Origin: Nonlabens tegetincola
GTDB lineage: Bacteria; Bacteroidota; Bacteroidia; Flavobacteriales; Flavobacteriaceae
Assembly (NCBI RefSeq): GCF_002954355.1
Contig: NZ_MQVV01000014.1
Coordinates: 186,001 to 250,000, forward strand
Length of the DNA: 64,000 nucleotides
Direction of reading: 5' to 3'
How positions within the stretch are numbered: the stretch's first letter is position 1; every line of letters starts with the position of its first letter. Below are positions 11,349 through 60,168 of this stretch, one piece after another. The translations under genes were made by a program, and so were the position numbers. Below the pieces are notes generated by a model. That model was not told the DNA's origin. It saw only the letters and a program-made list of their open reading frames with translations, and made no database searches.

Positions 11349-11361
11349 GTTGTTTTTCAAG

Positions 11362-13413: not shown

Positions 13414-13434
13414 AGCATTTAAAGATAGCCTTTT

Positions 13435-38680: not shown

Positions 38681-39657
38681 CTTGTGACGATACGTCTTGC
38701 GCAATTTTAAAAAATAATCAGGTGCTTAGCAACGTAACTGCGGCACAAGCTATTCATGAACAATATGGTGGAGTAGTGCCAGAATTAGCTTCAAGAGCTC
38801 ATCAATCCAATATTGTTCCCACAGTTGATGTCGCTATCAAAAATGCCGGTATTGATAAAAATGAACTTACAGCTATAGCCTTTACAAAAGGTCCAGGTCT
38901 TATGGGAAGTTTATTAGTAGGAACAAGTTTTGCAAAATCTCTTGCTCTTTCGCTTAATATTCCGTTAATCGATGTTCACCACATGCAAGCTCATATACTA
39001 GCTCATTTTATTGATCATGGTCAACGAGTTCCTGAGTTTCCTTTTTTAGGAGTTACTATAAGCGGTGGACACACACAAATCGTAAAGGTGACCGATTATC
39101 ACAAAATGGAGGTTATAGGAACCACTCAAGACGATGCAATAGGTGAGGCTTTTGACAAGTCTGGAAAGTTGATGGGACTAGGATATCCTGCTGGACCTCA
39201 AATCGACAAACTAGCTCAATTAGGTAATCCGTCTGCCTTTGAATTCCCTATTCCCAAAGCTCCTGGGCTCAACTTTAGTTTCAGTGGATTTAAAACTGCA
39301 GTATTGTACTTTTTACAAAAGGAGAAAAGTAAAAACCCAAATTTTGTAGAAGAAAATCTAGCCGATTTGTGCGCTAGTATTCAACACACGCTCATTAAAA
39401 TTCTATTTAAAAAGCTAGAAAAGGCTGTCAAAGAAACTGGGATTAAAAGAGTGGCAATAGGCGGTGGAGTAAGTGCAAATTCAGGAATAAGGACTGCTTT
39501 ACAAGCAAAACAGCAGCAAGGTTGGGACATCTTTATTCCTCCATTTGAATACACAACAGACAACGCTGCCATGATAGGAATAAGTGCCTATTTTAAATAT
39601 TTGAATAAAGAATTCTGCGGTTTGGACGTGAGTGCCGCACCTAGATTATCCATGTAA
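38641..39657 (+). CDS. tsaD: tRNA N6-threonylcarbamoyltransferase TsaD
   Basis: The 338-residue protein transfers the threonylcarbamoyl group to A37 of ANN-decoding tRNAs. The start at 38641 gives MKLQNSYILAIESSCDDTS, the canonical N-terminus. Metal-binding HHMQAH is near residue 111, SGGHTQ near 139 and the GEAFDKSGKLMGLGYPAGP segment near 167. NAAMIG near the end is also typical. It overlaps the following rsmE gene by one base (TAATG). Confidence 0.96.
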   Translation: MKLQNSYILAIESSCDDTSCAILKNNQVLSNVTAAQAIHEQYGGVVPELASRAHQSNIVPTVDVAIKNAGIDKNELTAIAFTKGPGLMGSLLVGTSFAKSLALSLNIPLIDVHHMQAHILAHFIDHGQRVPEFPFLGVTISGGHTQIVKVTDYHKMEVIGTTQDDAIGEAFDKSGKLMGLGYPAGPQIDKLAQLGNPSAFEFPIPKAPGLNFSFSGFKTAVLYFLQKEKSKNPNFVEENLADLCASIQHTLIKILFKKLEKAVKETGIKRVAIGGGVSANSGIRTALQAKQQQGWDIFIPPFEYTTDNAAMIGISAYFKYLNKEFCGLDVSAAPRLSM

Positions 39658-45877: not shown

Positions 45878-47761
45878 ATGTCACAAAAAGGAACTATTAA
45901 TGTAGCTGTGGAGAATATTTTCCCACTGATTAAGAAGTTTTTATACAGCGATCATGAAATCTTTCTTAGAGAACTTGTTTCTAATGCAACAGATGCAACT
46001 CTTAAATTAAAACATCTTGCTAGAATAGGAGAGGCCAATGTTGAATTAGGAGATCAACAAATTGAAATCAAGATTGATAAAGAGGCAAAAACATTAAGTA
46101 TTATCGATCGAGGTATCGGGATGACGGAAGATGAGGTGCAAAAGTATATTAATGAAGTCGCTTTTTCTGGTGCCGAGGAGTTTCTTGAAAAGTATAAAGA
46201 CACAGCCCAAGATAGTGGAATAATTGGTCACTTTGGTCTAGGGTTTTATAGTGCCTTTATGGTTGCCGATAAAGTAGAGATCATTACAAAATCCTTTAAA
46301 GACGAACCTGCTGTACACTGGACCTGTGATGGATCACCACAATATACGCTAGAGCAAGCGGATAAAACAGAGTTTGGAACTGAGATCGTTTTACATATAT
46401 CTGAAGACGAGACAGAATTTTTAGAGGATCATAGAATTACCGAGCTATTAAACAAGTATAATAAGTTTATGCCGGTACCTATTAAATTTGGTACACGAAC
46501 AGAGACTTTACCAAAAGCAGAAGATGCTAAAGAGGAAGATCCTGCACCTACTCAAGAAGTAGACAATATTATAAACAATCCAGATCCAGCTTGGACTAAA
46601 CAACCTGCTGATCTTGAGGATCAAGATTATAAAAATTTCTATCGTGAACTGTATCCTATGCAGTTTGAGGAACCATTATTCCATATCCATCTAAATGTAG
46701 ATTATCCATTTAACTTAACGGGTATTTTGTTTTTCCCAAAAATGACGGGAGATTTAAATATTCAAAAAGACCGCATACAACTGTATCAAAATCAGGTATT
46801 TGTTACAGATAATGTAGAAGGTATTGTTCCAGAGTTTTTGACCATGTTGCGTGGTGTGATAGACAGTCCTGATATTCCATTGAATGTATCTCGCTCATAC
46901 TTACAGGCTGATGGTGCTGTTAAGAAAATCTCTAGCTACATTACAAGAAAGGTAGCAGATAAGTTGAAATCATTATTTAATAATGATAGAGAAGGATTTG
47001 AGAAAAAGTGGAACGACATTAAACTGGTGATTGAGTATGGAATGTTGAGCGAGGAGAAGTTTTTTGAAAAAGCTGATGCTTTTGCACTTTACCCAACCGT
47101 GAATGATACTTTCTTCACTTGGAACGAACTTATTGAAAAAGTAGGTGAATCACAAAAGGATAAAGATGGTAAGACCGTTCTGTTATATGCTTCAAATAAA
47201 GAAGAGCAAGACAGTTATATTACCGCTGCTCATGAAAAAGGCTATGAGGTATTGTTGCTAGATAGTCCAATAGTTTCTCATCTTATGCAGAAATTAGAAA
47301 CTAGTAAGGAGAACATATCATTTGCTAGAGTTGATGCTGACCATATTGATAACCTCATTAAAAAGGAAGAGAACACAGTATCCAAACTTAATGAAGAAGA
47401 ACAAGAGCAATTGAAAACTGCTGTAAGTGACGTAATCGCAAGTACTAATTACAACGTTCAGGTAGAGGCGATGAGCAGTGATGCAGCTCCTTTCATGATT
47501 ACTCAGCCAGAATTCATGCGACGAATGAAAGAAATGCAAGCTACTGGTGGTGGAATGATGGGTATGGGAAATATGCCAGATATGTATAATCTTGTCGTGA
47601 ACAGTAATCATGAATTAATATCAAAGATTGTTGCTGCACCAGATGGTAAAAAACAGGAATTGATTAAACAATCTGTAGATCTTGCCAAGCTCAGCCAAGG
47701 TCTTTTAAAAGGCAAAGATTTAACAGACTTCATTAAACGTAGTTACGATTTAGTGAATTAA
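45878..47761 (+). CDS. htpG: Molecular chaperone HtpG (Hsp90)
   Basis: The 627-residue protein is the usual length for bacterial Hsp90. The N-terminal ATPase domain has FLRELVSNATDATLKL near residue 27, IIDRGIGMTEDEV near 74 and GHFGLGFYSAFMVAD near 113. The middle domain has RIQLYQNQVFV near 300 and LNVSRSYLQ near 340, and the C-terminal dimerisation part follows. It is a cytosolic ATP-dependent chaperone. Monocistronic, with a strong terminator after it. Confidence 0.96.
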   Translation: MSQKGTINVAVENIFPLIKKFLYSDHEIFLRELVSNATDATLKLKHLARIGEANVELGDQQIEIKIDKEAKTLSIIDRGIGMTEDEVQKYINEVAFSGAEEFLEKYKDTAQDSGIIGHFGLGFYSAFMVADKVEIITKSFKDEPAVHWTCDGSPQYTLEQADKTEFGTEIVLHISEDETEFLEDHRITELLNKYNKFMPVPIKFGTRTETLPKAEDAKEEDPAPTQEVDNIINNPDPAWTKQPADLEDQDYKNFYRELYPMQFEEPLFHIHLNVDYPFNLTGILFFPKMTGDLNIQKDRIQLYQNQVFVTDNVEGIVPEFLTMLRGVIDSPDIPLNVSRSYLQADGAVKKISSYITRKVADKLKSLFNNDREGFEKKWNDIKLVIEYGMLSEEKFFEKADAFALYPTVNDTFFTWNELIEKVGESQKDKDGKTVLLYASNKEEQDSYITAAHEKGYEVLLLDSPIVSHLMQKLETSKENISFARVDADHIDNLIKKEENTVSKLNEEEQEQLKTAVSDVIASTNYNVQVEAMSSDAAPFMITQPEFMRRMKEMQATGGGMMGMGNMPDMYNLVVNSNHELISKIVAAPDGKKQELIKQSVDLAKLSQGLLKGKDLTDFIKRSYDLVN

Positions 47762-47780
47762 TCTTAGAAATCTAATTGTA

Positions 47781-47817
47781 AAACCGCCAGATTTTTTAAA
47801 ATCTGGCGGTTTTTTTG
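47781..47817 (+). terminator. Intrinsic terminator of htpG
   Basis: Stem AAACCGCCAGATTTT / AAAATCTGGCGGTTT (47781-47795 / 47798-47812) followed by a T-run, 20 nt beyond the htpG stop. Confidence 0.9.
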
Positions 47818-48267
47818 TTGAAGCTAGAATAGTCGTTGATTTTTCATCCGATAAAATACTTAAAAAGAGGTTTTTAAGTAAAATACTCTAGAATAATACT
47901 AGGGTTTTAAGCTCTACTCATCGTATTTAAGTGTTTTTATCTATTTAACTTAAAATTAACATAAATTTTTAACTATTGAATTTACTAGTGTTTTCATCGA
48001 TTTGTACCCATTAATGGGAATAGCGCGAGCAATGATGTACTTGCTTAACACTTTTTTTTATGTGTACATTTGGAATGTCTTCAACGGCCAACCCTAATTG
48101 CACTAGAAGATAACGACAAAATCCCTTATGTCGTTTTATCGTACCCTACTACGGTTTTAAATAGTCCCCTTTAGAATAATTAACATTATTCCAACTGTAA
48201 ATAATGCGTAAGATTATTTAGAGTGCTCAAAATGAATGTGTTTTTATTAATTCTAAATATTCTAATT
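47818..48267 (+). other. Upstream region and long leader of the curli operon
   Basis: About 450 bp without a supported gene. It holds a near-consensus promoter (48041-48072), after which the transcript would carry a leader of about 190 nt. The leader has two small stem-loops, AACGACA / TGTCGTT (48112-48118 / 48129-48135) and GAATAAT / ATTATTC (48174-48180 / 48185-48191), then the TTCTAAAT element 10 bp before the first curlin start. An AATGGGAATAGC at 48013-48024 recurs after the operon at 58421-58432. Confidence 0.5.
48041..48072 (+). promoter_or_regulatory. Candidate promoter of the curli operon
   Basis: TTG at 48041-48043 and TACATTTG at 48065-48072, separated by 21 bp, fit the flavobacterial -33/-7 consensus (TTG ... 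TAnnTTTG). Transcription would start near 48080. Confidence 0.5.
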
Positions 48268-49572
48268 ATGAACCGAGTAAATTTAAGTGTAGCAGCACTT
48301 CTTGTGGCTGGATTTGCCTTTGCGCAATCTCCACAAACTGTAGCAAGCCCAGGTCAGCAAACGGCACCTGTAGCTGTATTACCAGCTGCTTCTGCTGGAG
48401 GTAACTATTCCAATATTGACCAGAAAGCAGTAGGTAGTGATGCCACGGTACAACAACAAGGTACCTCAAACATCTCATTTATTGATCAAACAGGATCAAA
48501 TGCATCAAAGAAAAATAATGTAGATGTACTACAATGGGGTAACGTACAACCAGGTATTAGTGGTTACCTGAACTATTCTGATATTAAACAGACTGGTGAA
48601 GGAAACAACTTTGACCTTATGCAACAAGGAGATAAAAACGAAAACTTTGGTCTACAAAATGGTGTAGACAATAGTGTAGTTGTGCAACAAGGTGCTAATA
48701 CTCCACAGCAAGCTGAAGAAAATCTTGCTTTATCAGACCAAGACGGTCTTGAAAACTATGCTGAAATCCAGCAAAGATATGACAACAACAAAGCAACGAT
48801 CACGCAACGTAATGACGTGTCATCAGGTGCTGGTAACTGGTCCTATCAAGAACAAATTGCAAATCCTAACCAAAGTGCAGGTCACACTGCAGTAGGTGAG
48901 CAATGGGGTGACGATAATACGTTAATCCAATTGCAAGAAGGATCTGCATCAGGACCTAACTCTTTAGGTAACTACGCTCAAGCAAATCAAGGAGACGCTC
49001 TTGCAGCTCCAGACAGCGCAACAGGTGCATTTGCTCAACAAGTACAATTAGGTGACGGTAACGAAGCTTATGCAGGTCAAAAATTGACTAACGATACTTC
49101 TTTCCAAGAGCAAATAGGTGATCTTAACCTTGCTGAGGTTAAGCAGAACTTAAGTGGTTCAAATGCAGGTGGTGATAACCATGCTGAGCAATACCAAGAC
49201 GGTAACTTGAACGAGGCTAGAATCGATCAGAATGGTAATAACAACATAGCTTTACAAGAGCAATATGGTGATGACAACTACTCTAAGATTAAGCAACGTT
49301 ACGGGCAAGTAACTGGTAATGAAGCTATTTCTTATCAAAATGGTACATTGAACAACTCTGTTATTAATCAACAAGCTAATGCAAACATGGCGCTTGTAGA
49401 TCAAACAGGTGATGGTCAAATGTCTGTAATCAACCAAAACAACCCACTTAACGGTTCTCCAGCAGCTACTTCTGGATCTAACAGTGCAACTGTTATTCAA
49501 AGAAACGCTAACGTGGCATTAACTCCATCTACGCTTAAAGCGGCTCAAACAAGAGCAGATCGTCGTAGATAG
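48268..49572 (+). CDS. Large curlin-repeat protein 1 (CsgA-like amyloid subunit)
   Basis: The start at 48268 gives MNRVNLSVAALLVAGFAFAQ, a clean signal peptide; the longer frame from 48223 is unlikely. The 434-residue protein is built of about fifteen curlin-type units of 19-25 residues (pattern x-Q-x-G-x2-N-x5-Q; for example VQQQGTSNISFIDQTGSN, LQEQYGDDNYSKIKQ). A central NPNQSAGHTAVGEQWGDDN block and a C-terminal NSATVIQRNANVALTP are shared with the next three proteins. It should be secreted unfolded through CsgG and polymerise as an extracellular amyloid. A stem-loop follows the gene. Confidence 0.88.
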   Translation: MNRVNLSVAALLVAGFAFAQSPQTVASPGQQTAPVAVLPAASAGGNYSNIDQKAVGSDATVQQQGTSNISFIDQTGSNASKKNNVDVLQWGNVQPGISGYLNYSDIKQTGEGNNFDLMQQGDKNENFGLQNGVDNSVVVQQGANTPQQAEENLALSDQDGLENYAEIQQRYDNNKATITQRNDVSSGAGNWSYQEQIANPNQSAGHTAVGEQWGDDNTLIQLQEGSASGPNSLGNYAQANQGDALAAPDSATGAFAQQVQLGDGNEAYAGQKLTNDTSFQEQIGDLNLAEVKQNLSGSNAGGDNHAEQYQDGNLNEARIDQNGNNNIALQEQYGDDNYSKIKQRYGQVTGNEAISYQNGTLNNSVINQQANANMALVDQTGDGQMSVINQNNPLNGSPAATSGSNSATVIQRNANVALTPSTLKAAQTRADRRR

Positions 49573-49580
49573 TATAACTA

Positions 49581-49629
49581 ATCCAGCACCTACCGAGAAT
49601 CTTCATTCCCTGTCTGGTGCTGGATTTTA
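49581..49629 (+). terminator. Stem-loop after curlin 1 (terminator or attenuator)
   Basis: Stem ATCCAGCACC / GGTGCTGGAT (49581-49590 / 49616-49625) followed by TTTAATT. Because curlin 2 starts 33 bp later with no obvious new promoter, partial read-through is likely. Confidence 0.65.
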
Positions 49630-49630
49630 A

Positions 49631-49651
49631 TTCTAAATTCTAAATTCTAAA
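49631..49651 (+). repeat. Three tandem TTCTAAA units before curlin 2
   Basis: Period-7 tandem repeat of TTCTAAA ending 10 bp upstream of the curlin 2 start. Single TTCTAAAT copies occupy the same distance before curlins 1 (48251-48258) and 3 (51023-51030). Confidence 0.6.
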
Positions 49652-49661
49652 TATCAAAACC

Positions 49662-50966
49662 ATGAAAAATATATTATTAAGTGCGGGAGCTATGCTTATC
49701 GCTAGCGTTGCATTTGCACAAACACCAGCAACGGTACCAGCAACAACTTCTTCTGCGATTGCAGTGCCTACTCCACAAGTGTCTCCAACTCTTGGAGCAA
49801 CAGTAGGAGGAAACTATTCTAATATCAATCAAAAAGCTGTAGGTAGTAACGCTTTAGTAGAACAGCAAGGTACTGCTAATGCTTCATACATAGACCAAAC
49901 AGGATCTGATGTTGGTAATAAAAATAACGTTTACGTTAAACAATGGGGTAATGTTCAACCATCTATTTCAGGTTATCAAAACCACTCTGAAATTACGCAG
50001 GATGGTGCAGGAAACGACTTCACAGCCTTACAACAAGGTGATACCAATATGAACTTTGGATCGCAAATAGGTCTAAATAATACCGTGATGGTTAAGCAAG
50101 GGGCTAATGCTGCTCAACAAGCACAAGATAATGTTGCTCTTTCTGATCAAGATGGTAAAGACAACAGTGCAGAAATCGAGCAATATTATGATAACAATAT
50201 GGCTTCTATCACACAACGCAATGATCAAGTAGCTGGTGTAGAAAACCAATCTTATCAATTACAAACAGCTAACCCTAACCAAACTGCTGGACACACAGCT
50301 ATTGGTGAGCAATGGGGTGATGACAACAAATTAGTTCAAATGCAAGATAGCGGTAGCCCTGCTAGTGGTGGAGCTAATCATGCTGAGGCTTATCAAGGTA
50401 ACGCAACTGCTGGAGCAGTGAATGCTTTTGCTCAACAACTACAGTCTGGAGATAATAATGAGGCATACTCTAACCAATTTGGTGTAAATGACGAGTCTTT
50501 CCAAGAGCAAAATGGTTCTGCAAACGTAGCTGTAGCTAAGCAAAATACTAGTCCAACTAGTGGAGGCGACAATTTATTAGAGCAATATCAAGAAGGTACT
50601 GGTAACAGAGCTAGTGCAGATCAAAATGGTAGTAACAACCAGTCTTTCCAAGAACAGTACGGTACAAATAACAGTGCTGTATTAACTCAACGTCAAGGTC
50701 AAATAGCTGGTAACGTTGCCTTATCTATTCAAGAAGGTATGAACCACCAGTCTGAAATCAACCAAAAGACTTCTGGTAACATGGCTACTGTAGATCAAAC
50801 TGGTCACGGACAAATGAGTATTGTTAATCAAAACTTCCCAGCTGGTAACGGTACTACTGCTCAGGCAGGTGCTGGTTACAACAGTGCAACGGTTATTCAA
50901 AGAGATGCAAACGTAGCATTAACTCCACAAATTCAGAGAGCTAACGCAACTAGAGCTAGATTCTAA
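49662..50966 (+). CDS. Large curlin-repeat protein 2 (CsgA-like amyloid subunit)
   Basis: The 434-residue paralogue has a signal peptide ending ASVAFAQ and about fifteen Gln/Asn-rich curlin units (VEQQGTANASYIDQTGSD, FQEQYGTNNSAVLTQ). It is closest to curlin 3: the stretch HTAIGEQWGDDNKLVQMQDS is identical, pointing to local duplication. The C-terminus is NSATVIQRDANVALTPQ followed by a basic ANATRARF tail. Predicted major or co-major amyloid subunit, secreted through CsgG. Confidence 0.88.
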   Translation: MKNILLSAGAMLIASVAFAQTPATVPATTSSAIAVPTPQVSPTLGATVGGNYSNINQKAVGSNALVEQQGTANASYIDQTGSDVGNKNNVYVKQWGNVQPSISGYQNHSEITQDGAGNDFTALQQGDTNMNFGSQIGLNNTVMVKQGANAAQQAQDNVALSDQDGKDNSAEIEQYYDNNMASITQRNDQVAGVENQSYQLQTANPNQTAGHTAIGEQWGDDNKLVQMQDSGSPASGGANHAEAYQGNATAGAVNAFAQQLQSGDNNEAYSNQFGVNDESFQEQNGSANVAVAKQNTSPTSGGDNLLEQYQEGTGNRASADQNGSNNQSFQEQYGTNNSAVLTQRQGQIAGNVALSIQEGMNHQSEINQKTSGNMATVDQTGHGQMSIVNQNFPAGNGTTAQAGAGYNSATVIQRDANVALTPQIQRANATRARF

Positions 50967-50979
50967 TAAAACCATAAAT

Positions 50980-51018
50980 AAACATCTAGTCTATAATTAA
51001 AATAGGCTAGATGTTTTC
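50980..51018 (+). terminator. Stem-loop after curlin 2 (terminator or attenuator)
   Basis: Stem AAACATCTAG / CTAGATGTTT (50980-50989 / 51007-51016) followed by TTCAAT, just before the curlin 3 leader. Confidence 0.6.
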
Positions 51019-51039
51019 AATATTCTAAATCTATAAACT

Positions 51040-52317
51040 ATGAAAAATTTATTCTTAACTGCTGGGGCAATGTTAATAGCAGGTGCAGCTTTTGCTCAAA
51101 CACCTTCTATGGTACAAGTTCCTACTCAGCAGAGCTCGCCTACCGCGACAGCCACAGTAGGTGGAAACTACTCTAATATCAATCAAAAGGCTGTGGGTAG
51201 TAATGCCTTGGTAGAGCAACAAGGAACTGCAAATGCTTCTTTTATTGATCAAACTGGATCTGACCAGAGTAATAAAAATGAAGTTTATGTGAAGCAATGG
51301 GGTAATGTGCAACCATCCATTTCTGGTCATTTGAATTATTCTGATATAACTCAAAATGGTGCAGGTAATGATTTTACTGCTTTACAACAAGGTGATGAAA
51401 ACCAAAACTTTGGTACCCAAGCTGGTTTTGATAACACTGTAATGGTTAAGCAAGGTGCAAACAGTGCACAGCATGCAGAGCACAACATTGCTATTTCTGA
51501 TCAAGATGGTAAAGAAAACAGCGCAGAAATTGAGCAATATTATGACAATAACGTGGCGACAATTAAGCAACGTAATGATCAAACTGCTGGAATCCGTAAC
51601 CAATCTTACCAACTTCAAACTGCAAATCCTAATGCTAGCGCTGGTCACACAGCTATTGGTGAGCAATGGGGTGATGATAATAAGTTAGTTCAAATGCAAG
51701 ATAGCGGTAGCCCTGCGTCTGGTGGTGGTAACTATGCAGAGTCTATGCAAGGTAGTGCTGCACACTCAGCTACAAATGCATTTGCTCAACAAAAACAGTC
51801 AGGAGATCTTAACCAAGCATATGCATCTCAATTAGGAGCAAATAATACATTATTCCAGGAACAATTAGGATCTGGAAACAAAGCGGTTGCATCTCAAGCA
51901 GATAACCCTGTAAATGGAAGTAACCTATATGCTGAGCAGTACCAAGACGGTACCGATAATGAAGCAAGATCAAAGCAGAATGGACGTAACAATGAAGCGT
52001 ACCAAGAGCAATATGGTCTTATGAACTACTCTACGATTGAACAAAGAGGTGGAGTAAACCCAAATGACGGTAATGTAGCATTATCTATCCAAGATGGTAC
52101 ATTAAACGACAGTAGAATTAAGCAACAAGCTCGTGGTAACACAGCTTTTGCAGATCAAACTGGAGACGGACAAATGAGTGTAATTAATCAAAATCTTACT
52201 TCTAACTCATCTCCTAATGGACATGGATACAACAGTGCTACTGTTATCCAAAGAAATGCTAATGTATCACTAGCACCTCAAGTACAAAGAGCTGGTGCAA
52301 CTAGAGCTAGATTCTAA
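51040..52317 (+). CDS. Large curlin-repeat protein 3 (CsgA-like amyloid subunit)
   Basis: The 425-residue paralogue has a signal peptide ending AGAAFAQ. The curlin units continue throughout (VEQQGTANASFIDQTGSD, YQEQYGLMNYSTIEQ), with the central NPNASAGHTAIGEQWGDDN block and the C-terminal NSATVIQRNANVSLAPQ plus GATRARF tail. The high Gln/Asn/Gly content, absence of Cys and regular spacing fit amyloid beta-helix-like stacking. The preceding leader has TTCTAAAT 10 bp before the ATG. Confidence 0.88.
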   Translation: MKNLFLTAGAMLIAGAAFAQTPSMVQVPTQQSSPTATATVGGNYSNINQKAVGSNALVEQQGTANASFIDQTGSDQSNKNEVYVKQWGNVQPSISGHLNYSDITQNGAGNDFTALQQGDENQNFGTQAGFDNTVMVKQGANSAQHAEHNIAISDQDGKENSAEIEQYYDNNVATIKQRNDQTAGIRNQSYQLQTANPNASAGHTAIGEQWGDDNKLVQMQDSGSPASGGGNYAESMQGSAAHSATNAFAQQKQSGDLNQAYASQLGANNTLFQEQLGSGNKAVASQADNPVNGSNLYAEQYQDGTDNEARSKQNGRNNEAYQEQYGLMNYSTIEQRGGVNPNDGNVALSIQDGTLNDSRIKQQARGNTAFADQTGDGQMSVINQNLTSNSSPNGHGYNSATVIQRNANVSLAPQVQRAGATRARF

Positions 52318-52328
52318 TAATTATTAAT

Positions 52329-52364
52329 GATCTCGTTCTAGTAACACTAGAACGAGATTATTTT
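52329..52364 (+). terminator. Stem-loop after curlin 3 (terminator or attenuator)
   Basis: Perfect 13-bp stem ATCTCGTTCTAGT / ACTAGAACGAGAT (52330-52342 / 52346-52358) with a 3-nt loop and a TATTTTC tail. The most stable of the intercurlin hairpins. Confidence 0.7.
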
Positions 52365-52381
52365 CATTCAATTACAACCCA

Positions 52382-53650
52382 ATGAAACTCTTAATAGGTA
52401 TAGCGTTTTTCCTTCAGGTAAGCATTCTTGTGGCTCAAAATCCACAACAGGTTGTTTCTCCTGGGCAGCAAGGTTATCCTACAAACAATGCTTCGCAAGG
52501 AGGAAATTATTCTTCCATTGATCAAAAGCAAGTAGGTAGTGATGCCGTTGTAGCCCAGCAAGGTACAGCAAATGCTTCTTTTATTGAACAAACGGGAACT
52601 AGTGTAACAAATCGCAACACAGTTTCTGTTTTACAATGGGGAAATGTACAACCAGGAACCAGTGGTGAGCAGAATTATTCTGACATAAAACAAAATGGAG
52701 CTGGTAACCAGTACACGCTAATTCAGCAAGGCGATATGAATGAAAACTTTGGTACTCAAGTAGGAGATAACAATAAAGTTCTTGTACAACAAGGCGCAAC
52801 TATTCCTCAACAAGCACAAAATAACCTAACTCTAGTAAACCAAAATGGTTCACAGAATTATGCACAGGTTCAACAGCGTTTTGACAACAGTCGTGCGCAA
52901 ATAACACAGCATAATGTAGGAAGTGCCGGAATAGGTAACCGTTCTTATACAGAACAAATTGCAAATCCTAATCAAAGTGCAGGTCATACTGCTATTGTAT
53001 CACAATATGGCGACGATAACGAGGCGATTCAAAAACAAAGTGGATTTATCTTCTTTCCAAATAACAATGGGAATTACGCTCAAATCGATCAAGGTGATTC
53101 AACAACTGCAGCTCATGGAAATGTCGCTCAACAGTTACAAGCTGGTGATGACAACGAGGCGTATATTACTCAATATGGTAATGACAACACAGTATTCCAA
53201 GAGCAATGGGGCAAATCAAATACAGCAATAGCCTCACAGAATGCAAGTTCTTTGACAGGTGATTCTAATTACATAGAACAATATCAAGCAGGAACTCATA
53301 ATCTTGCTAGTGCAACACAAAATGGATCAAATAATCATGCTTATCAGGAACAATATCTTTCTCACAATACCTCAATTATTACTCAAAACGGTGGTCAAAA
53401 TGGTATGAACGAGGCGATAAGTTTACAGCGTGGTTTACATAACAACTCTTTGATACAACAACAAGCAAGTAACAACTTTGCCTCTGTAGATCAAGTAGGT
53501 AACGGTCATACAAGTGTGATTCAACAAAATCAAGGAAGTGTAACACCAAATGCTGGTTCAAACAGTGCTGTTGTTATACAACGTAATGCAAATGTTTCTC
53601 TAGCAGGATACTCAAGAAGAGCCGCTGCTACAAGAGCACACCAATTTTAA
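52382..53650 (+). CDS. Large curlin-repeat protein 4 (CsgA-like amyloid subunit)
   Basis: The 422-residue protein is the most divergent of the four large curlins. The signal peptide ends ILVAQ. Curlin units include VAQQGTANASFIEQTGTS and YQEQYLSHNTSIITQ. The central block reads NPNQSAGHTAIVSQYGDDN, with Trp replaced by Tyr, and the C-terminus NSAVVIQRNANVSLAG ends ATRAHQF. It lacks the TTCTAAAT leader found before the other three, so its expression or translation may differ. Confidence 0.87.
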   Translation: MKLLIGIAFFLQVSILVAQNPQQVVSPGQQGYPTNNASQGGNYSSIDQKQVGSDAVVAQQGTANASFIEQTGTSVTNRNTVSVLQWGNVQPGTSGEQNYSDIKQNGAGNQYTLIQQGDMNENFGTQVGDNNKVLVQQGATIPQQAQNNLTLVNQNGSQNYAQVQQRFDNSRAQITQHNVGSAGIGNRSYTEQIANPNQSAGHTAIVSQYGDDNEAIQKQSGFIFFPNNNGNYAQIDQGDSTTAAHGNVAQQLQAGDDNEAYITQYGNDNTVFQEQWGKSNTAIASQNASSLTGDSNYIEQYQAGTHNLASATQNGSNNHAYQEQYLSHNTSIITQNGGQNGMNEAISLQRGLHNNSLIQQQASNNFASVDQVGNGHTSVIQQNQGSVTPNAGSNSAVVIQRNANVSLAGYSRRAAATRAHQF

Positions 53651-53656
53651 AAATCT

Positions 53657-53692
53657 AAGAAGCTGGAGAAATCACAACTCCGGCTTCTTTTA
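53657..53692 (+). terminator. Stem-loop after curlin 4 (terminator or attenuator)
   Basis: Stem AGAAGCTGGAG / CTCCGGCTTCT (53658-53668 / 53678-53688, one G-U wobble), followed by TTTTAAT, immediately before the short curlin-like gene. Read-through here would be needed to express csgEFG. Confidence 0.65.
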
Positions 53693-53706
53693 ATAAAATA
53701 AGAGAT

Positions 53707-54210
53707 ATGAAATATTTACTAATAGTTCTTCTGTTTTCCGCTTTCGCGAAAGCGCAAACATACGTGGATGATCAAAATCTAGTTAATGGAGGAAATTTAC
53801 AGACAGAAAATGCCCAGCTTAATGTAGCTACCACTACAACACAACAAAACGCTGCAAGAGGTAATACAACTCAAAATAATTCGGTATTTATCGCGCAAGT
53901 AGGTGTAAACAACTTGGCACTTACCAATGTAGCATCGAATAATGCTGAGGTTAATATTACTCAATCAGGATCTTACAATTTAACTGATTTGAGAATTAAT
54001 TCTCTTGTTGTTAGACAAAATGTAAATCAAAATGGAGTAGGAAATCAATACTATAACTATAGTACTCAAGGTAATTTACTCAATGTTGCCAACGTAAATC
54101 AAGAAGGAAATTACAATACTACAATTAGTGTAGGTAACAATAGTGTGACTGAGAGAGTGAGAGTAAACCAGCAAGGAATAGGAAGTACCGTATATGTACT
54201 TCATTATTAA
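53707..54210 (+). CDS. Short curlin-like protein, possible nucleator
   Basis: The 167-residue protein has a signal peptide ending AFAKAQ, encoded by a palindrome copy. It has about six degenerate curlin-like units (VFIAQVGVNNLALTNV, VNITQSGSYNLTDLRI, VRQNVNQNGVGNQYYN, VNQEGNYNTTISV, VNQQGIGSTVYVLHY). Length is close to E. coli CsgA/CsgB (about 151 aa). Being single, short and divergent, it may be the CsgB-type nucleator or a capping subunit; this is inference. It begins 3 bp before csgE. Confidence 0.75.
   Translation: MKYLLIVLLFSAFAKAQTYVDDQNLVNGGNLQTENAQLNVATTTTQQNAARGNTTQNNSVFIAQVGVNNLALTNVASNNAEVNITQSGSYNLTDLRINSLVVRQNVNQNGVGNQYYNYSTQGNLLNVANVNQEGNYNTTISVGNNSVTERVRVNQQGIGSTVYVLHY
53740..53753. 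repeat. Dispersed palindrome GCTTTCGCGAAAGC (copy 10, in a signal peptide)
   Basis: Perfect 14-bp palindrome encoding Ala-Phe-Ala-Lys-Ala just before the cleavage site of the short curlin-like protein. Confidence 0.85.
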
Positions 54211-54213
54211 TCA

Positions 54214-54948
54214 ATGAAGAGATTTAAATATTTAATAGCATTCGTTTGTTTAATAGCTGCTTTTACTAGCGCACAAGAATCTCTTTACAATAGAACAGTG
54301 GCAGCAGAAATTGTGCTGGAGCAACAAGCTGAAAATATTGTGATTAAAGCACTTGCTGTAAACAAAACTCAAGTTGATACAGGTATCAGCTATAAGTTTA
54401 CTGTTTTTACTAAAGACAGTTTAAATAATTCTAGTAAAAATGAACAAAAAGGTAATGGTGTGGTCAAGGCTGGTATTAAAGCCCTTTTAGGTACTACACA
54501 GGTAGGAATTAACATTCCAGAAGAAATAAAAATAATGGTACTTATTTATGATCAACTGGATCAATTAATAGGTAAAAAAATAGAAACTATAGCGCCCTAT
54601 ACTACACAATTGGTAACAGCAAACCAATATCGAAATGACGATGAATATCTAGGGTTTAGGGGAATAGTAACTAATAAAACAAGAACAAAACCAGGTAAGG
54701 ATTTTTATATTGAATTCTTCCGATTATATAAAAAATACAATGTCAATAGTGATAAAATCGTCGTTGTCAGGGAAGTGTTTGGTCAGGGACGTACTTCACA
54801 AATTCAAATACAAGTAGGCTTTACCAAGTTAGAGCCCTTTGTACTCAGCCCACAAAAAAAATACATTGAATATATGGCCTCGCGTATGCTTCAACTAGTA
54901 TATATCGAGCTACAAAAAATGAAAGAAAAAGAAACTCGAGAATATTAA
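54214..54948 (+). CDS. csgE: CsgE-type curli secretion factor with extra N-terminal domain
   Basis: The 244-residue protein is about twice the length of E. coli CsgE (129 aa). The signal peptide ends TSAQ. The CsgE-like part is C-terminal (about residues 150-235: GKDFYIEFFRLYKKYNV ... TSQIQIQVGFTKLEPFVLSP ... YIEYMASRML) and matches E. coli CsgE in order and spacing (GHDFYRAF ... WITITVNQDVIFQTFLFP). Residues ~22-125 form a separate beta-sandwich-like domain resembling CsgH/CsgC (YKFTVFTKDSLNNSSKNEQKG ... GTTQVGINIPEEIKIMVLIYDQLDQLIGKK). CsgE caps CsgG in the periplasm and delivers subunits; the extra domain might prevent premature amyloid formation (inference). Confidence 0.85.
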   Translation: MKRFKYLIAFVCLIAAFTSAQESLYNRTVAAEIVLEQQAENIVIKALAVNKTQVDTGISYKFTVFTKDSLNNSSKNEQKGNGVVKAGIKALLGTTQVGINIPEEIKIMVLIYDQLDQLIGKKIETIAPYTTQLVTANQYRNDDEYLGFRGIVTNKTRTKPGKDFYIEFFRLYKKYNVNSDKIVVVREVFGQGRTSQIQIQVGFTKLEPFVLSPQKKYIEYMASRMLQLVYIELQKMKEKETREY

Positions 54949-54966
54949 TAACTAAAAACCAAAATC

Positions 54967-55395
54967 ATGCTCAAATCGATTACAACAATGCTCACGTTGT
55001 TTATGGTTATTCTGTTAAGCTCAACAACAGATTCCCAAGCTCAACAATTAGTGTACAGACCTATTAATCCAGCCTTTGGTGGCGATACTTTTAATTATCA
55101 ATGGTTGGTTCAAAGTGCCGAATTACAAAATAAATTTACTGATCCCAATGAAGCAGCTCTTGCAGAAGATGAGTCTGCATTAGATGCTTTTGCTCAAGGT
55201 TTGAATAGACAACTTTTAAGTTCGTTATCTCGTAGTTTATTAAACTTACAATTTGACAGCAGTCAGGATCTAGAACCAGGTACCTTCAGTTTTGGAAATC
55301 TTGAAGTTGAAGTCTTGGAATCTTTAGAAGGATTGGTAATAAATATTTTAGATACAACTACAGGTGATCAGACTCAGGTAGTCGTTCCTCAATAA
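54967..55395 (+). CDS. csgF: Curli assembly protein CsgF
   Basis: The 142-residue protein has a signal peptide ending SQAQ, directly followed by the CsgF signature QLVYRPINPAFGGDTFNY and LVQSAELQNKFTDP, which correspond to the CsgG-binding N-terminus and first helix of E. coli CsgF. A helical middle (LNRQLLSSLSRSLLNLQFD) and a beta-rich C-terminus follow. It binds the CsgG pore on the outer surface and couples secretion to nucleation. It sits between csgE and csgG, with 13 bp to csgG. Confidence 0.92.
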   Translation: MLKSITTMLTLFMVILLSSTTDSQAQQLVYRPINPAFGGDTFNYQWLVQSAELQNKFTDPNEAALAEDESALDAFAQGLNRQLLSSLSRSLLNLQFDSSQDLEPGTFSFGNLEVEVLESLEGLVINILDTTTGDQTQVVVPQ

Positions 55396-55408
55396 ACCAA
55401 CCTTTATT

Positions 55409-56935
55409 ATGAGACTTTTTAAACTAGTAGTGATACTACTGGCCTGTATGATTTTGCAGGGATGTGGTGCCTACTTTAACCAGCCTTTAGATACTCAAGA
55501 CGCTAGAATAGGTGAGACTACAAAAGTTACTGATCGCTTGCGTAATCTTCCACCACCTATCATACCAGCAGTTGTAGGAGTATATAAATTTGAAGACCAA
55601 ACAGGACAATTTAAATTGAGTGAGGTAGGAAGTACCTTTAGTAACGCTGTTACTCAAGGAGGAACAACTATCCTAATTAAAGCTCTTGAAGATTCTGGAT
55701 GGTTTAGACCTATCGAGAGAGAAAATCTTACCAATCTAATTACAGAACGTAATTTGATACTAGATACTCGTCGCTCTTATGCCAAGCAAAGCAACACTCA
55801 AATGAAGGATTTGGATCCTTTATTATATGCAGGTATCTTAATTGAAGGTGGTATTGTATCGTATGACACAAATGTTCTCACCGGTGGCGCAGGAGCTAGA
55901 TACTTTGGCGCTGGTGGTTCAACAAAATACCGCCAAGATCGAGTAACTGTTTATTTGAGAGCAGTTTCTACTAAAAGTGGTGAAATATTAAAAACCGTAT
56001 ATGTTTCAAAAACTATTTTCTCACAAGCAGTTGATGCTAGTCTTTTTAGATATGTGAGTTTTCAAAGATTGCTAGAGGCAGAAACTGGTTTTACTAGAAA
56101 TGAACCAGGACAGCTTGCTATTAAAGAAGCCATTGAAAAGGCAGTAGAATCTTTGATTATAGAAGGTATAACTGTAAACCTATGGTCGCCTGCTGGTGGT
56201 CAAGAAGTTGCTACAGCCATGGTTCGTAAGTACAATAAAGAGAAAGAAGTGGCAGAGCGTACTGATGTGTATCAACGTGATCTACTACAACGCCGTAGTA
56301 AATTAAGAATTGATTTGGGCGCTGGTGGAACTTACATGCAAGGTGATTTGCCCAATGCCGATTATGAACACCATTTTAATGTAGGTCTTAAATACAACTT
56401 TAACCCATACCTAGGTGTGCGTGGAAATCTTAGTCAGTTGCGATTAAACAACGAGGGCTTGTTTAATGAACAATTTCGCACTGCCGATTTAAATGCCGAA
56501 GTTACCTTACTACCTTTTGAATCTTTTACTCCACATGTTTATGGTGGAGCAGGAGTTTTGGCTGTAAATGGTATTTCAAATTTTGAACCTAAACTACAAG
56601 TAGGAGCAGGCTTTGAATATGCCTTAACTCCTAGTTTTGGAATTCAAGCTTTTGGTGAATATAACATGACATTTACCGACGAGCTGGACGGAACCGTGGC
56701 AGGTAAACGAGATGATAACTATTACAGAGTAGGAGTAGGTCTCAATTTTTATCTAGGAGATAATCAAGCGAAACAAAACAATCTTACTAAACAACAACGT
56801 AAAGCTAGACGCCGTCAAAAACGTAGTGAGCGCAAGCAATTGAGAGAAAGTTTGAAAAAAGCTAAAGAATTAGATGCGCTTTCTCGTCCTGCTCAACAAG
56901 ATGATAATTCAAACGGATCTACTAACTCAAACTAA
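55409..56935 (+). CDS. csgG: CsgG curli secretion pore with C-terminal beta-barrel extension
   Basis: The 508-residue lipoprotein is nearly twice the size of E. coli CsgG (277 aa). Lipobox LQGC gives Cys19. Residues ~20-265 are the CsgG pore-forming lipoprotein: LDTQDARIGETTKVTDRL, IIPAVVGVYKFEDQTGQFK, GGTTILIKALEDSGWFRPIERENL, RRSYAKQ and ILIEGGIVSYDTN. Residues ~295-450 add an outer-membrane porin-like barrel (LRIDLGAGGTYMQGDL ... GGAGVLAV ... YYRVGVGLNFYLG). The last ~50 residues are highly basic, then Asn/Ser-rich. CsgG forms the nonameric outer-membrane channel; the extension is not part of the classical protein. Confidence 0.93.
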   Translation: MRLFKLVVILLACMILQGCGAYFNQPLDTQDARIGETTKVTDRLRNLPPPIIPAVVGVYKFEDQTGQFKLSEVGSTFSNAVTQGGTTILIKALEDSGWFRPIERENLTNLITERNLILDTRRSYAKQSNTQMKDLDPLLYAGILIEGGIVSYDTNVLTGGAGARYFGAGGSTKYRQDRVTVYLRAVSTKSGEILKTVYVSKTIFSQAVDASLFRYVSFQRLLEAETGFTRNEPGQLAIKEAIEKAVESLIIEGITVNLWSPAGGQEVATAMVRKYNKEKEVAERTDVYQRDLLQRRSKLRIDLGAGGTYMQGDLPNADYEHHFNVGLKYNFNPYLGVRGNLSQLRLNNEGLFNEQFRTADLNAEVTLLPFESFTPHVYGGAGVLAVNGISNFEPKLQVGAGFEYALTPSFGIQAFGEYNMTFTDELDGTVAGKRDDNYYRVGVGLNFYLGDNQAKQNNLTKQQRKARRRQKRSERKQLRESLKKAKELDALSRPAQQDDNSNGSTNSN

Positions 56936-56941
56936 ACAATC

Positions 56942-58408
56942 ATGAAATACACAACATACATTCTGCTAGGACTGCTACTCATGTTGACGGGTTGTAGTGA
57001 AGATACTATCGAGATTAATGGTAAAGGGATTATTAAAGGTAGGGTAGTAGAGGATATCACTTTTTTACCTCTTGAAAATGTAAAAATATCAACAAATCCA
57101 CAAACCAATGTCGTATTTACCGATGTAGATGGGAATTTTGAAATAGAGGTTGAAGAAGGACAATATGCTGTACAAGCCCAAAAGGATGATTTCTTAGCAT
57201 CATTTGAAAGCGCCGATGTCTTTACAGGAGAAACCGTAGAACTTGTTTATGAACTTAAACCATCAACAGCAAACAATCAACCACCAGCTACACCGTCATT
57301 GGTTGCTCCAGTGGATAATGCCGTTGATCAACCCTTTGAACTTACCCTAGAATGGAGTTCTGTCGATCCTGATGAGGACGAATTAAAATTTACAGTTTTA
57401 CTTAGAAACAGCAGGGATAATACGGTAGAAACTTTTGAAGATATTACCGAGGAAACACTAGATGTGCAAGTGGCTTTTAATACTACCTATTTTTGGCAAG
57501 TAATTGCAAATGATGAAATCAACACACCTGTAAACAGTCCGGTATTTACTTTTTCAACAGCAGACTTTCCGTTAAACAGATTCCATTTCGTGAGAAAATC
57601 AGGTTCTAACAATCAAATTTTTAGTGCCGATGGCGATGGAGTAGAAATAGCACTTACTGATGCCACAACTAATTCTTGGAGACCACGAATCAATCGTACC
57701 GCAAATAAGATAGCTTTTTTACGAAATGTGGGTGCTCAAATCCACGTATTTACTATGGATCCAGATGGCAATAACCAGCAACAAATAACAAGTCAAATAC
57801 CAGTTTCAGGGTTTAATCCTGATGAAATAGACATCACTTGGTCAGATGATGGTTCCTTGATTTATTATCCTGTACAAGACCGGTTGTACAGCATTCAATT
57901 GGATGGAACAGGATTAACACAAGTACATCAAACGACGGGTAATCTAATTACCGAAGTTGATTTTAATAACGGTATTCTAGCGGTAAAGACTAATAATTTA
58001 TCCGGCTATAACTGCGAGATTTATACTATTGATACTGTAGGTAATGTGCTCGATGTGGTTTTAACTGGAGTGACTGGAGCTGTAGGTGGTATTGATCTAA
58101 GTGCCGATAATTCTCAAATTTTATACACACGTGACGCTAGTGGATTTGAAAACCAGCAGTATCGCAGGCTAGATGTTAATGCTTACGTCTACAATTTCAA
58201 TACCATGAATGAGGTTAATGTGAGCTTTAATAAGGATCCAGGGACTAATGATCTGGACGTTCGTTTTTCACCGACTGAGGCTTCCATAATTGTGTACAAT
58301 CAAGACAACGATGGAATCACGCCAGGTAAAGTACAAACACTAGCCATATTAGTACCTGATACACGTGAAGATGAATTTACAAACGCAATGATGCCAGACT
58401 GGAAATAA
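56942..58408 (+). CDS. Lipoprotein with regulatory-like, FnIII and TolB-like propeller segments
   Basis: The 488-residue lipoprotein (lipobox LTGC, Cys18) starts 6 bp after csgG and is the last gene of the operon. Residues ~28-100 look like a carboxypeptidase-regulatory-like domain (GIIKGRVVEDITFLPLENVKI ... TDVDGNFEIEVEEG). Residues ~115-205 are FnIII-like (PATPSLVAPVDNAVD ... TTYFWQVIANDE). Residues ~210-480 show TolB/WD40-like strands (NQIFSADGDG, RINRTANKIAFLRN, VFTMDPDGNNQQQITSQ, ITWSDDGSLIYYP). It has no counterpart in the E. coli csg operons. Position suggests a surface accessory, such as a fibre anchor; this is inference. Confidence 0.75.
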   Translation: MKYTTYILLGLLLMLTGCSEDTIEINGKGIIKGRVVEDITFLPLENVKISTNPQTNVVFTDVDGNFEIEVEEGQYAVQAQKDDFLASFESADVFTGETVELVYELKPSTANNQPPATPSLVAPVDNAVDQPFELTLEWSSVDPDEDELKFTVLLRNSRDNTVETFEDITEETLDVQVAFNTTYFWQVIANDEINTPVNSPVFTFSTADFPLNRFHFVRKSGSNNQIFSADGDGVEIALTDATTNSWRPRINRTANKIAFLRNVGAQIHVFTMDPDGNNQQQITSQIPVSGFNPDEIDITWSDDGSLIYYPVQDRLYSIQLDGTGLTQVHQTTGNLITEVDFNNGILAVKTNNLSGYNCEIYTIDTVGNVLDVVLTGVTGAVGGIDLSADNSQILYTRDASGFENQQYRRLDVNAYVYNFNTMNEVNVSFNKDPGTNDLDVRFSPTEASIIVYNQDNDGITPGKVQTLAILVPDTREDEFTNAMMPDWK

Positions 58409-58567
58409 CATTATCTCAAAAATGGGAATAGCTGTCGTTTATCCTGTACATTGTGCGTAACAATGTCGTTTAAACTGTCCCTGAGCAAGATAGTTTATAG
58501 GATATCTGAATAGGATACTTACGCAACTTCACTATTTTTAAACGGCTATTCCCTAGGGATAATATAT

Positions 58568-58620
58568 AAAAAAAATAATGCCTGAGAAGAGTATAGGGAA
58601 ACTCTTCATCAGGCATCTTT
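58568..58620 (-). terminator. Strong hairpin, best as minus-strand terminator
   Basis: Stem ATGCCTGAGAAGAGT / ACTCTTC-A-TCAGGCAT (58578-58592 / 58601-58616, one bulged A). The U-tract is on the minus strand (A8 at 58568-58575); the plus-strand side has only CTTTCATT. It may also end the curli transcript on the plus strand with lower efficiency. Confidence 0.6.
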
Positions 58621-58652
58621 CATTCTAAATATCTATAAACCGTTATGTTTTA
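58568..58652 (-). ncRNA. Candidate small RNA downstream of the curli operon
   Basis: On the minus strand a TAnnTTTG-type -7 element (TATATTTG, plus coordinates 58660-58667) would start transcription near 58652, and the hairpin with its U-tract would end it near 58568, giving an RNA of about 85 nt. No convincing -33 element was found. Speculative. Confidence 0.25.
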
Positions 58653-58869
58653 GACGACACAAATATACAGATGAAAGGTTTATTTGTTAGATTAATTACA
58701 TAATATTTAGCATTTGTTCAATAAATAATGCATTTCATCGATGTGGTTAGTAATTCGAATTAAAAAAATGTGTTAAGGTTAAATTGCTTAGTGATTTTTA
58801 ATTTTCAATCAACCTTAATTACATGTTAATGTCATCATTTATAATTTCGGCTGCGAGTATCTTTATGCT

Positions 58870-60168
58870 ATGAATGCATTTAATATTCCTCAAAGCAATC
58901 ACCCTAGAGTCATTATAGTAGGTGGTGGTTTTGGTGGTGTTACGCTTTCGCGAAAGCTAACAAAGCTCCAACTTCAAGTGGTACTTATAGATCAAAATAA
59001 TTACCACACCTTTCAACCCTTATTGTATCAGGTCGCAACTAGCGGTTTAGAACCTGATAGTATTGCATTCCCATTACGAGGAATTACGGATAATCAGGAG
59101 AATTTCTTTTTTAGAATGGCACAGGTTACTCAGGTTGTTCCCGAAAAGAATGAAATTGAAACTAATATCGGAAAATTACAATTTGATTACTTGATTCTTG
59201 CCACAGGAACCAAAACCAATTACTTCAATAATCAACAAATAGAAAATGCTAGTATGGGAATGAAAAGCGTGGTCGAATCGCTTAACATACGTAGTACTAT
59301 GCTCAAAAATTTTGAAAAGGCTACTATTACAGCTAGTGAAAAGGAGCGTAAAAAATTAATGCGTATTGTAATATCTGGCGCTGGACCTACTGGAGTAGAA
59401 CTTGCTGGTGCTTTTGCCGAATTTAAAAAAGGAGTAGTTCCCAAGGATTATCCCGATATTAATCCTGAAAATATGGAAATTCACCTCATCGATGGGTCAG
59501 ATAGGGTATTGTCTAGTATGAGCGAGGCTTCTAGTAAGAAATCTTTAAAATATCTCGAAAAATTAGGTGTCAATATTCATTTGAATACCTTGGTTAAGAA
59601 TTATGAAGATGATGTCATCTCTACAAATACGGATCTTAATCTAGAAGCATCCACCTTTATCTGGAGTGCTGGTGTTATTGGAAATCACATTCCTGGTATT
59701 AAAGAAGATTCCTTTCATGAGAAAACACAACGTTATCGAGTAGATGAATATAACCGTATCATGGGTTACGAATCTATTTATGCTGTTGGTGATATCGCAT
59801 TAATGGAAACTGATGACTATCCCAAAGGTCATCCACAAGTTGCGCAGCCAGCTATACAACAAGGGAAAAATCTCGCCAAAAATTTTAAAAGGCTACTCAG
59901 GGAAAAACCTCTTAAACCTTTTTCATATTTTGATAAAGGAAGCATGGCTACCATAGGGCGTAATAAAGCAGTTGCCGATGTGGGATCTTTTACGATTGGC
60001 GGTTTTGCTGCCTGGTTCACATGGTTGGCAGTTCACCTTTATTTTTTGGTAGGTGTTAGAAATCGAGTGGTGGTTTTTCTTAATTGGATTTATAACTATT
60101 TCAACTTTGATCGTGCTGCACGTCTTATCTTACAACCAGAGCGATCCAAAGGGGCTCCTAAGAATTAA
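58870..60168 (+). CDS. ndh: Type II NADH:quinone oxidoreductase (NDH-2)
   Basis: The 432-residue flavoprotein oxidises NADH and reduces quinone without proton pumping. The FAD Rossmann motif VIIVGGGFGGVTLSRKL lies at residues 14-30, the NADH-binding motif VISGAGPTGVELAGAFAE near 168, and the second FAD contact YAVGDIALME near 305 with PQVAQPAIQQG following. A hydrophobic/amphipathic C-terminal region (WFTWLAVHLYFLVGVRN) fits membrane attachment. A palindrome copy gives TLSRKL in the first Rossmann helix. Tail-to-tail 4-bp overlap with the porin gene. Confidence 0.92.
   Translation: MNAFNIPQSNHPRVIIVGGGFGGVTLSRKLTKLQLQVVLIDQNNYHTFQPLLYQVATSGLEPDSIAFPLRGITDNQENFFFRMAQVTQVVPEKNEIETNIGKLQFDYLILATGTKTNYFNNQQIENASMGMKSVVESLNIRSTMLKNFEKATITASEKERKKLMRIVISGAGPTGVELAGAFAEFKKGVVPKDYPDINPENMEIHLIDGSDRVLSSMSEASSKKSLKYLEKLGVNIHLNTLVKNYEDDVISTNTDLNLEASTFIWSAGVIGNHIPGIKEDSFHEKTQRYRVDEYNRIMGYESIYAVGDIALMETDDYPKGHPQVAQPAIQQGKNLAKNFKRLLREKPLKPFSYFDKGSMATIGRNKAVADVGSFTIGGFAAWFTWLAVHLYFLVGVRNRVVVFLNWIYNYFNFDRAARLILQPERSKGAPKN
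58944..58957. repeat. Dispersed palindrome GCTTTCGCGAAAGC (copy 11, inside ndh)
   Basis: Perfect 14-bp palindrome read as LSRK, within the FAD-binding helix of NDH-2. Confidence 0.85.

Follow-up and report, generated by a model that had tools for sequence, protein, structure and literature searches.

A Bacteroidota curli operon in Nonlabens tegetincola with a CsgH-like domain probably fused to CsgE and a barrel domain on CsgG

Curli are amyloid fibres of biofilms. The window examined here, 64,000 nucleotides (nt) of contig C14 from the 3.03-Mb genome of Nonlabens tegetincola, carries on its forward strand (48268-58408) a well-supported, complete operon for curli (type VIII secretion) in its Bacteroidota form: four giant curlins and a small one, homologues of CsgE, CsgF and CsgG, and a lipoprotein. 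Our preferred reading, to which we give a probability of roughly 0.7, is a Bacteroidota variant of type VIII secretion in which inhibition of the amyloid subunits, their hand-over and their export would be physically linked. The argument is drawn from homologies, protein fusions, gene order, co-occurrence across genomes, hairpins and the strand pattern of the curlins, all of it sequence evidence; from these we infer the hand-over itself, a ring of barrels, anchoring of the fibre, co-polymerisation of the curlins and a gradient of expression.

Secretion proteins with additional domains

Profile searches bear out the initial annotation, made from the letters and open reading frames (ORFs) alone, which had called the locus a curli-like operon: the CsgE-, CsgF- and CsgG-type products all score above cut-off (E 8e-8 for CsgE; Table 1 for the others), as do the four giant curlins, and the CsgG family profile leads to solved CsgG structures at E 3e-84. 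The CsgE fusion and the CsgG barrel described below are additions to that account. Curlin-repeat matches at E <= 1 number 29 in the genome, all inside the operon, and a genome-wide profile search returned one CsgG and no second match. Among the named relatives (the best 80 of 577), the nearest csgG genes belong to Nonlabens records and strain BBFL7, at 60-68% identity, and csgG of this operon type is present in 16 of the 23 genus genomes in our collection. Beyond the genus, 25 other genomes of the family were matched, of which 20 were fetched first and G119 later; G033, G068, G074 and G091 were left out. In two of the genus genomes (G138 and G133; loci L061 and L063) csgG is split over several ORFs, and the L061 curlin is also broken; these genomes are incomplete, and the broken genes are either pseudogenes or assembly errors.

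The CsgE protein appears to carry an amyloid inhibitor at its N-terminus. CsgE is matched over residues 149-240, and NCBIfam CsgH over residues 31-107 with a score below cut-off (E 5e-5). The AlphaFold2 model (mean predicted local distance difference test score, pLDDT, 87.7) has seven strands, an ill-defined linker at residues 135-147 and a CsgE-like domain. Foldseek placed CsgH (2n59) first among PDB matches (E 1e-5, TM 0.72 by target) and CsgC (2xsk) fourteenth (TM 0.77); between the two stand mainly large enzymes, among them GH2 glycosidases and proteins of transglutaminase type. Over 36 fusion proteins, CsgH was matched at E <= 0.01 in 32, CsgE in all and CsgC in 2. Since a domain of the CsgC/CsgH fold sits at the N-terminus of CsgE, the inhibitor is probably fused rather than missing. 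The initial annotation was correct that no free csgC-like gene lies at the locus, but it did not recognise this fused domain; nor did we see, by eye, a csgD-type gene among the ORFs adjoining the operon (the remaining genome was not searched for csgD).

The fusion is shared by relatives. Families are numbered from f1 upwards: the named Flavobacteriaceae fall in f1, and f1 plus f2 presumably correspond to the Flavobacteriales. A quick tree built from 53 rows of CsgG is compatible with the fusion having arisen once, in f1 and f2, and having split later in Flavobacterium, three split rows being nested inside the fusion rows. Searching with a profile of the fused domain turned up free CsgH genes in 5 of 25 loci outside f1 and f2, all scoring 53-62 bits and above the NCBIfam CsgH cut-off; one split Flavobacterium-type copy (f1) scores 34.4 bits, just under it. 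Outside f1 and f2, an N-terminal LysM domain is found on CsgE in 10 of 27 proteins from 25 genomes (L239, L245, L251 and others), and LysM-CsgE could serve as a peptidoglycan tether for the CsgG gate.

CsgG continues into an outer-membrane protein (OMP) beta-barrel domain. The region after the CsgG domain matches OMP_b-brl (Table 1), and PorG of type IX secretion was also matched, below cut-off. The tail behind the barrel is long and basic in the 14 genus sequences (50-60 residues), whereas 17 of the 20 others have no more than 32 residues there. CsgE was matched in 41 of 395 Bacteroidota genomes, with at most six candidates scored per genome, and divergent CsgE may be missed; CsgG extends into the barrel in the same 41 (with the barrel end of G182 taken from a local profile), which span 12 families. 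The csgG loci of 36 of these genomes were fetched, all with a barrel match, besides the window's own; G208, G280, G422 and G476 were read from match positions alone. A barrel is likewise present in 79 of 79 named relatives, but that set was ranked by a query that includes the barrel, and the 41/395 count is therefore the better guide. Because it accompanies every CsgE match among the sampled genomes, the barrel-bearing CsgG is likely the common form in the phylum. CsgG-like proteins without a barrel match were found in ten genomes of family f18 (G188, G260, G279, G311, G315, G334, G366, G413, G428 and G506), in frames of 296-344 aa and none with a CsgE match; we take them as non-curli, possibly with another secretion role. 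A recent survey (PMC12822426) places the C-terminal region of CsgG on the periplasmic side, so the barrel that follows it could enter the outer membrane from inside, and a pore would then carry nine barrels.

The lipoprotein belongs with this machinery. Its profile matches 376 of the 395 genomes, mostly via generic domains, and for this reason only full-length or in-locus matches were counted. By that measure it lies within the locus in 39 of the 41 CsgE genomes: full-length in 24, where it always adjoins csgG or closes the run of curlins, and in a shorter form, mostly the N-terminal domain alone, in 15; for G258 and G348 the match is on another contig or in another locus of the same genome. 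Of 35 first loci, 34 have it 3' of csgG, and the remaining one begins at a contig edge; among 79 named loci the full-length form is present in 76, and the three exceptions are on contigs of 3.5-7.1 kb. We rejected the idea of a random neighbour because of the co-occurrence with curli loci; judged by its distribution, it is a conserved component of these loci. At least two acidic residues follow the lipid cysteine at positions +2 to +6 in 35 of 35 aligned lipoproteins and in 0 of 34 CsgG proteins, a pattern in line with the surface export signals described after that cysteine, for which the available text of PMC5080379 gives the F. johnsoniae consensus SDDFE. For the C-terminal half a propeller is the probable, though tentative, assignment: Dpp5 and TolB matched it below cut-off (E 9e-10 and 2e-4), with DPPIV_N in 3 of 35 and PD40 in 1 of 35 lipoproteins. 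Outside f1 and f2 the gene often lies 3' of the small curlin (or of CsgH) rather than of csgG, which leads us to pair the lipoprotein with the fibre base.

Curlins and the layout of expression

The initial annotation listed four tandem repeat proteins of 422-434 residues and a 167-residue relative on one strand, and the ORFs and their lengths are as it described. All four giant curlins score above cut-off for PF07012 (E 2e-12 to 1e-17). An AlphaFold2 model of a giant curlin has 28 strands at curlin spacing (mean pLDDT 79.5; predicted template modelling score, pTM, 0.82). A script placed 31, 32, 31 and 31 strand anchors in curlins 1 to 4, from which those in the signal peptide, N-terminal stretch and tail were left out; the 28 anchors used are common to all four proteins, and their spacing is almost the same from one protein to the next (for example 11,11,15,19,11,11,11,17,11,11,16,16,11,17-18,16-19), with long arcs recurring about every fourth strand. 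The same spacing is found in most curlins of the genus, those of L055 and L059 excepted. Among the four, identity is 100% at inward Q, 89% at N, 80% at hydrophobic positions, 40% at outward positions and 51% in the arcs: inward residues are kept and outward ones diverge. Because the paralogues have the same strand pattern and core, the earlier suggestion that they build a multi-subunit fibre is plausible.

The small curlin is a weak match alone (18.8 bits against a PF07012 cut-off of 20.7) and a clear one through its family: a profile of 34 members leads to the curlin structures 8c50 (E 1.6e-9) and 8enq (E 1e-8), and a small curlin is present in 33 of 35 loci. The number of curlin copies varies from 1 to 9 over the 34 loci with curlins. 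In the curlin tree the copies have mixed histories: curlins 2 and 3 are nearest each other (support 91/99), curlin 4 has a long branch to itself, and the tree does not resolve several of its forks. At L077:1471-12094, in the same family, nine curlin-type genes of 285-311 aa lie in a row, three of them recognised by motif count only.

Gene spacing differs along the operon, in which every ORF is on the forward strand: the gaps after curlins 1 to 4 are 89, 73, 64 and 56 nt, and the later gaps 3, 18, 13 and 6 nt. Across loci, the median gaps between machinery genes are 3.5-10 nt, and hairpins with z < -2 were predicted in 30 of 31 foldable junctions from curlin to small curlin and in 33 of 37 from curlin to curlin (3 and 4 further junctions, shorter than 40 nt, were left unfolded). 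The initial annotation began the operon at 48041, which coincides exactly with the start of a match to TTG-N21-TACATTTG, which we take to be the Bacteroidota -33/-7 consensus. This pattern has nine matches on both strands of the entire window and none within 400 nt before curlins 2, 3 and 4 or the small curlin. Among the 14 genus loci that have curlins, 11 carry it no more than 400 nt 5' of one of these genes (the exceptions are L049, L050 and L060), against 1 of 20 loci of other genera, so it is a genus feature at best. Rfam at gathering scores gave no match over 40000-64000, and a search for mobile-element or switch repeats in 47700-48300 and 58380-58900 gave one inverted repeat just 3' of the previous gene and short direct repeats only.

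Table 1. Features of the curli operon, in positions of the window
Feature	Position	Strand	Evidence and remarks
Putative promoter TTG-N21-TACATTTG	48041..48072	+	Pattern match, -33/-7 type of Bacteroidota
Giant curlin 1, 434 aa	48268..49572	+	PF07012 E 3e-16; 28-strand model; alternative GTG start 48223
Hairpin after curlin 1 (approximate limits)	49580..49626	+	z -6.5
Giant curlin 2, 434 aa	49662..50966	+	PF07012 E 2e-12
Hairpin after curlin 2 (approximate limits)	50980..51016	+	z -9.1
Giant curlin 3, 425 aa	51040..52317	+	PF07012 E 1e-17; 70% identity to curlin 2; tree
Hairpin after curlin 3 (approximate limits)	52326..52362	+	z -8.2
Giant curlin 4, 422 aa	52382..53650	+	PF07012 E 5e-16; tree: most divergent of the four
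Hairpin after curlin 4 (approximate limits)	53657..53689	+	z -4.9
Small curlin, 167 aa, candidate CsgB-like nucleator	53707..54210	+	PF07012 E 0.0016, below cut-off
Putative CsgH-like (about residues 21-134) and CsgE (about residues 148-240) fusion, 244 aa	54214..54948	+	Profiles, AlphaFold2, Foldseek
CsgF, 142 aa	54967..55395	+	PF10614 E 7e-39
CsgG (residues 55-261) with OMP beta-barrel domain (residues 296-447), 508 aa, basic C-terminal tail	55409..56935	+	PF03783 E 1.5e-60; PF13505 E 5e-11
Lipoprotein, 488 aa	56942..58408	+	Cys18 then SEDTIE (surface-export-like); CarboxypepD-reg; FN3-like region; probable beta-propeller
Terminator-like inverted repeat after operon	58578..58616	+	By eye, no tool score; absent from the repeat-finder list

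Two other loci of the window lie on the reverse strand. At 8439-16704, tandem proteins of 973, 683 and 1089 aa with PKD domains and the CHU_C type IX secretion signal form a second surface-protein cluster, and at 34139-38704 there is a TamB homologue of 1521 aa.

From periplasm to fibre: a proposed route and its rivals

A route consistent with these features can be outlined as follows. A single promoter would probably drive synthesis of the four giant amyloid subunits and the small CsgB-like curlin, then of the secretion machine, and the hairpin after each curlin cistron may raise subunit mRNA above machinery mRNA. Unfolded curlins would enter the periplasm via N-terminal signal peptides (recognised by eye), where the CsgH-like domain may hold them from nucleating and, through its tether to CsgE, hand them straight to CsgE where it caps the CsgG pore. 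Each CsgG protomer would carry its extra barrel domain after the periplasmic C-terminal part, so that the barrels ring the pore in the outer membrane. Outside the cell, CsgF and the small curlin could start the fibre; the lipoprotein would flip to the cell surface and there anchor or cap the fibre base. With a common strand pattern and divergent outer faces, the four giant curlins may co-polymerise into a fibre of variable surface chemistry. Tentatively, the operon can be taken further, as a distinct Bacteroidota type VIII machine in which inhibitor, gate and outer-membrane seat are fused and the surface lipoprotein and small curlin form a nucleation and anchoring platform; we consider this possible, though less probable than not.

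Several observations weigh against linked inhibition, hand-over and export, most of them touching the CsgH-like domain. Its NCBIfam CsgH score in the window protein is 23.3 bits against a cut-off of 35, and the seven-stranded Ig-like fold is weak evidence alone because it is common: 115 PDB matches reached E <= 0.001, and unrelated enzymes make up most of the 50 listed. The fusion model has a pTM of 0.51 and does not fix the relative placement of the domains. Cysteine is absent from the domain in 36 of 36 proteins; a cysteine pattern (CxC or a distant pair) is used to define and sort CsgC and CsgH in the accessible text of PMC4838910 and PMC5135000, and since that pattern is lacking here we call the domain CsgH-like and not CsgH. 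The same sources, so far as available, hold positive charge to be important for CsgC/CsgH, and this domain is near neutral (mean charge -0.3; the CsgE domain averages +5.9 and the giant curlins -11 to -23). CsgH was not found in 20 of the 25 more distant Bacteroidota loci, so the inhibitor goes undetected in many curli loci of the phylum. Lastly, the T runs of the hairpins are short (by eye), and the hairpins could for that reason be terminators or stabilisers alike.

Could this instead be an ordinary Bacteroidota curli system, in which barrel and lipoprotein are ornaments of the lineage that perform no separate step, and the CsgH-like part serves only in folding or targeting? Relatives have the architecture in common by descent, and because distant loci have free CsgH in only 5 of 25 cases and LysM on 10 of 27 CsgE proteins, the partner of CsgE is not fixed. 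However, the barrel is kept on CsgG in 41 of 41 CsgE genomes from 12 families, and the lipoprotein stays with the operon though its position shifts, making such a system unlikely in our view. A slightly stronger rival, though still rather improbable, concerns the giant curlins, which may be alternatives used at different times, or dosage copies, and not co-polymerised. Their copy number is fluid, at 1 to 9 per locus, and duplication seems ongoing given that curlins 2 and 3 are the closest pair. Against this, the curlins lie in one run with a promoter match of the searched type within 400 nt for curlin 1 only, 47700-48300 contains no switch-like inverted repeat except the one just 3' of the previous gene, and the strand pattern is common to all four.

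That the repeat proteins form a CsgG-secreted, non-amyloid beta-solenoid adhesin or coat is very improbable. This idea draws on the absence of a significant Foldseek match between the curlin model and solved curli: nothing in the PDB reached E <= 0.001 and curlin 8c50 ranked 38th at E 1.3, a point that also counts against our preferred reading. Fold assignment of the model by Foldseek gave nothing usable and was dropped. The expectation of a beta-solenoid is only partly borne out, with 28 strands predicted at curlin spacing and no PDB match at that threshold. Nonetheless, the curlin profile in 4 of 4 proteins, the Q/N pattern of curlin repeats and the complete csgEFG set all favour amyloid curlins.

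Known curli systems and significance

The features of E. coli curli used here for comparison are in part general background and otherwise follow the accessible parts of PMC3521004. The likeness to csgBAC-csgDEFG lies in the CsgE, CsgF and CsgG homologues and the curlin repeats; here, in contrast, there is a single run with one promoter match and no csgD seen beside it, the curlins are nearly three times longer and four in number, and a CsgC/CsgH-fold domain on CsgE, a barrel on CsgG and an extra lipoprotein are added. Earlier publications already describe giant curlins and multiple copies. As far as could be consulted, Dueholm et al. 2012 (PMC3521004) report Bacteroidetes curli operons with up to six csgA/B copies (as in Spirosoma) and, when all orders are counted, curlins that reach 529 aa and 22 repeats, and Sleutel et al. 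2023 (PMC10192328) report 4 to 62 repeats and up to 30 curlin copies per genome. The degenerate-class curlins of the latter (e.g. Sediminicola) resemble ours in having arc insertions between strands, whereas in our operon the arc lengths are nearly fixed, and common to the four paralogues and most genus curlins.

The secretion proteins depart further from these accounts. Unlike the present operon, Bacteroidetes lack csgC in the accessible text of PMC3521004, which also finds CsgG size independent of subunit size; its passages, as available, mention neither fusions nor the lipoprotein, and the words 'fusion' and 'barrel' are absent from its main text. PMC4838910 describes the seven-stranded CsgC/CsgH fold and, in the parts available, notes a CsgH-like sub-family in Bacteroidetes, whereas ours is joined to CsgE and has no cysteine; the main text of that paper contains neither 'fusion' nor 'fused'. 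The 2025 survey finds curli widespread in Bacteroidota and, where accessible, lists clusters by csg gene content only (PMC12822426). Full-text literature searches, with supplements, most subscription papers and preprints outside their coverage, returned no report of a fusion of CsgH with CsgE, of a barrel on CsgG, of LysM-CsgE or of the lipoprotein, a result that does not establish priority; for CsgE with LysM the search gave no paper.

Our data suggest that the secretion machinery is more distinctive in this operon than the giant curlins. CsgC/CsgH and CsgE each inhibit curlin fibrillation in vitro, according to the available text of PMC5135000, and the natural CsgH-like/CsgE fusion argues that inhibitor and then gate act on the same chain in succession, offering one protein that bears on how CsgC/CsgH and CsgE divide inhibition. 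The barrel-bearing channel and the conserved lipoprotein, in turn, point to attachment steps missing from the E. coli model. Together, the fused secretion parts and the lipoprotein suggest how subunits prone to amyloid formation may be steered through export and anchored.

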